Shown here piece by piece: positions 14,135-14,305 of a DNA stretch of 64,000 bases. Source of the stretch: Candidatus Rokuibacteriota bacterium. GTDB lineage: Bacteria; Methylomirabilota; Methylomirabilia; Rokubacteriales; CSP1-6. Both the position numbers and the translations under genes were made by a program. Position 1 is the first letter of the stretch; each line of letters opens with the position of its first letter. The notes under the pieces are model-generated. The model was not told the DNA's origin and ran no database searches. It saw nothing but the letters and a program-made list of their open reading frames with translations. The DNA lies in assembly GCA_030647435.1 (NCBI GenBank), contig JAUSJX010000031.1:1-64000 (forward strand). Reading direction: 5' to 3'.

Positions 14135-14163
14135 TTGACACGGGGGTGGCTCTCTGGCACGAT
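14135..14163 (+). promoter_or_regulatory. Probable sigma70-type promoter of the leuA leader
   Basis: A perfect TTGACA at 14135-14140 is followed after 17 bp by CACGAT at 14158-14163, with TG one base before it (extended -10). Transcription would start near 14170, only a few bases before the leader-peptide ATG, so the leader message would be nearly leaderless. The -10 itself is weak (three of six), so this is a prediction. Confidence 0.55.
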
Positions 14164-14173
14164 TGGCCCCGTT

Positions 14174-14206
14174 ATGACGTCTTTCCTGGGTCTCCTGCTT
14201 ATGTAG
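14174..14206 (+). CDS. leuL: Leucine-rich leader peptide of the leuA attenuator
   Basis: A ten-codon reading frame MTSFLGLLLM ending in TAG. Four of its ten codons are leucine (CTG, CTC, CTG, CTT), three of them consecutive, and it stands directly before a hairpin and an intrinsic terminator upstream of leuA. This is the classic form of amino-acid attenuation: ribosome stalling at Leu codons when leucyl-tRNA is scarce would prevent terminator formation. No Shine-Dalgarno sequence is visible, which fits a leaderless start from the promoter just upstream. It is too short for gene finders; the call rests on codon content and position. Confidence 0.75.
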   Translation: MTSFLGLLLM

Positions 14207-14207
14207 C

Positions 14208-14233
14208 GGCGAGCGCGGAATTCCGCGTTCGCC
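14208..14233 (+). promoter_or_regulatory. Attenuator hairpin after the leader peptide
   Basis: A 26-nt near-perfect palindrome (GGCGAGCGCGG / CCGCGTTCGCC around AATT, one G-U pair) starts one base after the leader stop codon. A ribosome stalled on the Leu codons would cover part of its left arm, so it is placed to sense translation. Which alternative pairing acts as antiterminator is not clear to me. Confidence 0.65.
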
Positions 14234-14236
14234 GAG

Positions 14237-14268
14237 CCTCCTGCGACAATGTCGCTAGGAGGTTTTTT
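14237..14268 (+). terminator. Intrinsic terminator of the leuA attenuator
   Basis: The stem CCTCCT-GCGAC with loop AAT and GTCGC-T-AGGAGG (one bulged T) is followed at once by six T residues at 14263-14268. It lies 37 bp before the leuA start codon on the coding strand, so it can only work as a regulated terminator for leuA. Confidence 0.8.
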
Positions 14269-14305
14269 ATTTCCGGCTCGTGACCGAGCCTGCGTGAGGA
14301 GCGAC

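Follow-up and report, generated by a model that had tools for sequence, protein, structure and literature searches.

In enterobacteria, the leuA gene of the leuL-leuABCD operon is preceded by a leader-peptide frame containing Leu codons and by an intrinsic terminator; translation of the leader is led by a Shine-Dalgarno (SD) sequence, and protector, preemptor, and terminator helices overlap. Attenuators have also been described upstream of branched-chain amino acid genes in actinomycetes. The model put forward for ilvBNC of Corynebacterium glutamicum exchanges three nucleotides at a boundary (PMC11857589), and induction through the ilvB1 attenuator of Mycobacterium tuberculosis was lost when the LVVI codons were changed to Ala (PMC13236596). 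Mycobacterial attenuators with leaderless poly-cysteine ORFs have been reported (Canestrari, 2020, as cited in PMC13236596), and the LEU element was described for actinobacterial leuA genes (Seliverstov et al., 2005, PMC1262725). A search of open-licence papers returned no report of leader-peptide attenuation in Acidimicrobiia or Methylomirabilota.

Here we analyze the leader of a leuA gene within a 64,000-nt stretch of a Methylomirabilota genome (hereafter, the window). Its anatomy, conservation, covariation, the match between control codons and downstream genes, and its joint inheritance with leuA together argue that the element is likely a leucine-responsive transcription attenuator worked by the translating ribosome.

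Organization of the leuA leader

The features of the element are listed in Table 1. The original prediction had described the TTGACA element, the ten-codon frame with four Leu codons, three of them in a row, and the final TAG, all of which were read at 14135-14206; the second stem with its T6 run and the start of leuA 37 nt past the end of this run were likewise read at 14235-14306. It had also placed a 26-nt hairpin one base past the stop codon. The hairpin itself stands, but its extent was corrected, since an outer C-G pair had been omitted and the 28-nt structure begins directly after the stop, with 0 nt between. The terminator in turn follows hairpin 1 flush, with a spacer of 0 nt.

Table 1. 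Features of the leuA leader region in the window
Feature	Position	Strand	Description
Promoter	14135..14163	+	TTGACA at 14135-14140, 17-nt spacer, CACGAT at 14158-14163; read directly
Leader ORF MTSFLGLLLM*	14174..14206	+	Ten codons, TAG at 14204-14206; read directly
Hairpin 1	14207..14234	+	28 nt, 12-bp stem, loop AATT; fold and covariation
Intrinsic terminator	14235..14268	+	Stem 14235-14264, U-run T6 at 14263-14268; fold and covariation
leuA, type II 2-isopropylmalate synthase	14306..15991	+	SD GAGGAG upstream; NCBIfam matches

The leader reads ATG ACG TCT TTC CTG GGT CTC CTG CTT ATG TAG, so that the three consecutive Leu codons occupy positions -4, -3, and -2 from the stop. The -10 box is poor and matches TATAAT at only three of six positions, which is why a scan with a consensus promoter does not list it. 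Relatives carry CACAAT, GACAAT, or GAGAAT at the equivalent position, and the -35 element, the spacing, and the -10 element are conserved across the other leuA leaders of the order. The transcript is predicted to start at about position 14170. The leader ATG lies approximately 10 nt downstream of the -10 box and no ribosome site precedes it in the window sequence, so the earlier suggestion of translation from a nearly leaderless transcript apparently holds. The leader RNA folds far better than its shuffled versions (z -5.3, 0/200). No Rfam 15 family exceeded the gathering threshold anywhere in the window, and positions 14100-14330 gave sub-threshold chance matches only. At 14263-14277, as in most related elements, the U-run continues past a single different base into TTT (TTTTTTGTTT), giving a longer tail than is usual for a terminator.

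The product of leuA belongs to the yeast/actinobacterial class (type II) of 2-isopropylmalate synthases, with matches above the cut-off to NCBIfam NF002991 (869 bits) and TIGR00970 (816 bits). An esterase/PHB-depolymerase-like gene (16013-17101, plus strand) starts 21 nt after leuA; it is possibly co-transcribed with leuA and would hence also be under the attenuator. Farther downstream, a stretch of lower GC content (0.60-0.61) holds a restriction-modification-like pair (17168-19675, minus strand); its DNA methyltransferase has weak NCBIfam matches below the cut-off (best MAD2, 2e-9), and the 257-aa partner has no family match. The leuC and leuD genes (3961-5960, minus strand) lie outside the attenuator's control, as originally proposed: they have no leader, and approximately 30-60 nt separate leuC from a divergent gene.

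Distribution and joint inheritance with leuA

An independent covariance model was built from 15 Acidimicrobiia leuA leaders only, with the window and its order left out. This model matches the window element with 52.8 bits (E 4.5e-11) and recovers all ten other members of the order that carry type II LeuA, and it gives no convincing match in 59 other type II leuA loci. No convincing second copy was found in the window genome, where the next match (E 0.08) lies away from amino-acid genes. Type II LeuA is present in 11 of the 95 genomes of the phylum that were searched, all of them in the window's order, and each of the 11 has the leader. The common LeuA of the order is of another type, 29% identical, and no such leader was found at the native type I LeuA of the window genome or at the type I LeuA loci of relatives that were examined.

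The nearest type II LeuA relatives in public genomes come from Acidimicrobiia (Actinomycetota), and 21 of these bear an equivalent leader, with a promoter-proximal start, a Leu-codon run, a stop, a hairpin, and a terminator. The 32 proteins whose genes follow an attenuator group together in the LeuA tree as a single clade (support 95). Within it, the LeuA of the window and its two nearest relatives are nested among the Acidimicrobiia sequences (supports 99 and 97), and the LeuA proteins of the other eight members of the order form a separate group at the base of the clade. This topology points to joint inheritance of the gene and the attenuator with at least one transfer across phyla. On these grounds leuA and its attenuator probably moved together, and the soil bacterium appears to have acquired leuA, switch included, from Actinomycetota-like relatives. 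Three loci of Acidimicrobiales (L071, L079, and L100) encode type II LeuA that does not belong to the attenuator clade, and they lack the element.

Control codons and downstream genes in Acidimicrobiia

When 148 genomes of the class Acidimicrobiia were scanned with the first model, 80 of them proved to carry elements. Altogether 125 elements were read, a set that includes protein-found loci: 68 stand before type II leuA, 40 before the other leuA type, 12 before ilvB, 2 before leuB, and 1 each before cimA and leuS, and one has no gene assignment. A single attenuator design is thus common to two distantly related types of leuA. The same design was noted at the Acidimicrobiia ilvB loci L138, L173, L175, L176, L179, L181, L184, L186, L187, L224, L226, and L227, as well as before leuB (L180, L183), a cimA-like citramalate synthase gene (L185), and leuS (L178).

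The control codons vary with the downstream gene: Leu for leuA and leuS, Val/Leu/Ile for ilvB, Ile-Val-Ile for cimA, and Ile/Val for leuB. The absence of Leu from the leuB leaders perhaps reflects a leuB gene heading an ilv-type operon. Since the model was trained on Leu leaders, codon statistics of model-found elements are biased to Leu; unbiased figures were taken from the 32 loci fetched by LeuA protein homology, where Leu occupies codon -2 in all 32 leaders, codon -3 in 27, and codon -4 in 28. The rare codon CTT makes up 28% of leader Leu codons vs. 4% in leuA genes. Codon-to-gene matching, combined with the shared architecture, strongly supports control through ribosome stalling by the pathway's own amino acids, as far as comparison of sequences can show.

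Conserved hairpins and a proposed coupling of translation to termination

In the 124 parsed elements, hairpin 1 starts 0 nt (108 elements), 1 nt (14), or 2 nt (2) after the stop codon, and the spacer between hairpin 1 and the terminator is 0-2 nt in 92 elements, 3-6 nt in 32, and never longer than 6 nt. The control codons stand at a constant distance ahead of hairpin 1. Both hairpin 1 and the terminator covary, with self-versus-cross duplex z-scores of -14.5 and -12.7 before type II leuA and -11.0 and -10.4 before type I leuA, and pair counts also support both stems. The original prediction had read the region as a leucine leader-peptide attenuator and named the lack of Leu codons and of the two stems in orthologous leaders as grounds for giving this up; it survives, because the relatives' leaders show covariation in each stem and have kept the Leu run.

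None of the other pairings in the self-versus-cross test of these 124 elements, which covered all arm combinations, the loop, and the leader, was supported. A positive control with trp leaders of Gammaproteobacteria gave 3 sub-threshold matches in 321 genomes, and implanted helices were used instead; a 6-bp covarying antiterminator helix was detected in both leuA groups. A conserved antiterminator pairing did not emerge from the test, in which a covarying helix of at least 6 bp would have shown; the earlier remark that such a pairing was not evident is borne out. Further candidates were rejected. Pairing of the leader Leu codons with the 3' arm of the terminator is strong on average, yet weaker than after synonymous recoding, and is therefore incidental. 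A leader-loop pseudoknot lacks covariation (P 0.76), and frameshifting or read-through translation into the terminator is not indicated, as three frames are equally stop-poor, with no frame bias. The hairpin 1 loop CACATAT/GCATATC recurs in many Acidimicrobiia leuA elements (e.g., L037, L041, L057, L142) despite the variable stem; no pairing partner was found for it.

From these features we infer leaderless initiation, stalling, the sign of the response, and a coupling step. Transcription would begin a few bases upstream of the leader ATG, and the nearly leaderless end would take up a ribosome. When charged tRNA-Leu is short, the ribosome would halt at the Leu codons, its leading edge only just touching the base of hairpin 1, which would stay folded. 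When leucine is plentiful, the ribosome would reach the stop codon abutting hairpin 1, and its front edge would melt most of the 5' arm. The front edge of a ribosome lies approximately 12 nt ahead of the A-site codon. In the computed geometry, stalling at Leu -4, -3, or -2 puts this edge at the base of hairpin 1 or 0-4 nt into it, and a ribosome at the stop reaches approximately 9 nt into it. By virtue of this conserved geometry, hairpin 1 would report the position of the ribosome, being folded if the ribosome is stalled and open if not.

For the coupling step we propose steric exclusion, given that hairpin 1 and the terminator adjoin without a gap and are in other respects independent of each other. 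A terminator stem has to close at its base within the exit channel of the polymerase, where a rigid helix directly upstream would leave no room; a folded hairpin 1, flush with the 5' arm of the terminator, would thus act as the antiterminator. Once hairpin 1 is melted, the block would be gone, the terminator would close, and leuA would be off. With the ribosome footprint masked at Leu -4, at Leu -2, or at the stop, folding still permits the terminator in each case; since thermodynamics alone allow it beside a folded hairpin 1, termination would be constant if the steric step were absent. The placement of hairpin 1 at 0-2 nt past the stop and the 0-2 nt spacers are consistent with the flush arrangement, as is the 0-nt spacing of most actinomycete ilvB leaders that we folded, whose M. 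tuberculosis counterpart responds to its control codons (PMC13236596). Against the explanation as a whole, a ribosome at the stop covers only approximately 9 nt of the 5' arm and soon leaves, about a quarter of the elements have the longer spacers, and the -10 box is poor. Taken alone, steric exclusion is a tentative proposal, which we regard as plausible rather than probable.

The contact between ribosome and polymerase offers another route. Pause hairpins are standard in attenuators, and hairpin 1, as the first structure leaving the polymerase, could pause it and so synchronise it with the ribosome, with a stalled ribosome acting through polymerase contact (coupling factors) and not through RNA. 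Such a hairpin alone explains neither the flush spacing to the terminator nor read-through after stalling, and we consider this unlikely, though deserving of attention.

The leader peptide, the control codons, and the terminator all match classical attenuation, in which stalling would release one arm of hairpin 1, and this arm would then pair with the 5' arm of the terminator (a 2:3 antiterminator), as in the enterobacterial trp and leu operons. An initial test on a smaller set did give a weak h5:t5 signal (P 0.03, one of eight), but it was gone in the larger set (P 0.15 and 0.80). Pairing of the 3' arm of hairpin 1 with the 5' arm of the terminator was no better in self than in cross comparisons (P 0.96 for type II and 0.88 for type I leuA), in groups where the 6-bp implant is detectable, and it averages -4 to -7 kcal/mol vs. 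-21 to -23 kcal/mol for the terminator; the same test in ilvB elements gave P 0.06 (n=8). With a stalled ribosome in place, the free RNA binds the 5' arm of the terminator by only about -1 to -3 kcal/mol. Classical attenuation is accordingly doubtful for this element.

Since the two hairpins abut, hairpin 1 might instead extend at its base by taking a few nucleotides of the terminator; the published C. glutamicum ilvBNC model employs a shared trinucleotide in this way (PMC11857589). The base extension, however, averages 0.77 pairs vs. 0.75 in the cross control and reaches at least 2 pairs in only 7 of 75 elements, and the next pair in the window would be G-A, which leaves such an exchange improbable. 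Translational control, suggested for the LEU element, would work through base pairing of the Leu codons to the leuA ribosome site, which stalling would release. In the minimum-energy fold of the window, the stretch of Leu codons is indeed paired with the region of the leuA SD, but any CTN codon run pairs with GGAGG, and over 27 loci the Leu codon:SD pairing is no stronger in self than in cross comparisons (P 0.94), so we regard this as very improbable. An ordinary terminator of the upstream region next to a chance Leu-rich ORF can practically be dismissed: each of the 32 LeuA clade members, in either phylum, has kept the element, which also recurs ahead of further genes of the pathway, and there is nothing to terminate on this strand, because the upstream gene (13754-14062) is divergent.

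Comparison with known attenuators

Steric exclusion, if it operates, would define attenuators of a class in which antitermination dispenses with alternative base pairing: a flush hairpin blocks an independent terminator, and a ribosome at the stop codon at the hairpin foot unblocks it. Such a class would be widespread upstream of branched-chain genes in Acidimicrobiia and would have reached another phylum along with leuA. We put this forward cautiously, as a possibility that has yet to earn the word probable. The analysis adds to the range of ribosome-controlled attenuation a phylum on which the open-licence literature yielded no such report, describes a regulatory RNA that appears to have crossed between phyla together with its gene, and provides an extensive alignment of natural variants of a design with two hairpins and no detectable antiterminator pairing. 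It thereby opens to direct test the manner in which terminators of actinobacterial branched-chain attenuators might be turned off when no helix overlaps them.

The likeness to enterobacterial leuL lies in the Leu codons and the intrinsic terminator before leuA. The original prediction had gone further and assigned the element the architecture of leuL and of the known actinobacterial leuA leader; neither assignment could be kept. In place of the overlapping helices of leuL, the window has two independent hairpins and no detectable antiterminator pairing. The LEU element is likewise a Leu-codon leader before orthologous type II leuA, but it has an LLLxxRxxEA-like peptide, pseudoknot/SD pairing, and no U-run terminator (Seliverstov et al., 2005, PMC1262725), whereas the window leader ends in LLLM* and has a terminator. 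The type II leuA genes of Actinomycetes carry the LEU-type leader LLLxxRxxEA*, and the model trained on Acidimicrobiia found nothing convincing at these loci, so that the two sets are separated. Because a defining feature of each was tested and not found here, the element should be classed neither with the classical leuL type nor with LEU elements. In LEU-type leaders (L049, L054, L058, L061-L064, L066, L073, and others of Actinomycetes), the Arg and acidic residues past the Leu run are conserved as part of LLLxxRxxEA, suggesting selection on the peptide or RNA beyond Leu sensing.

Mycobacterial poly-cysteine attenuators, as cited in PMC13236596, resemble the window in using a leaderless short ORF as an amino-acid sensor, but they sense cysteine and have no obvious terminator hairpin (PMC1262725), whereas the window combines Leu codons with a terminator. 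The actinomycete ilvB(NC) attenuators (PMC11857589; PMC10272879, ilvB-II motif; PMC13236596) differ in that their control codons are found 5-6 codons ahead of the stop, vs. -2 to -4 in the window, and in that the 5' arm of the hairpin is part of the leader ORF and the stop codon falls in the hairpin, whereas in the window the stop directly precedes the hairpin. Their published models invoke a mutually exclusive antiterminator, while none is detectable in elements of the window type. Like the window, they have a leader ORF with branched-chain codons, a hairpin shortly behind, and an adjoining intrinsic terminator; the ilvB leader ORF of C. glutamicum is also leaderless, and in 9 of the 12 actinomycete ilvB leaders that we folded, hairpin and terminator are separated by 0 nt, as in the window.
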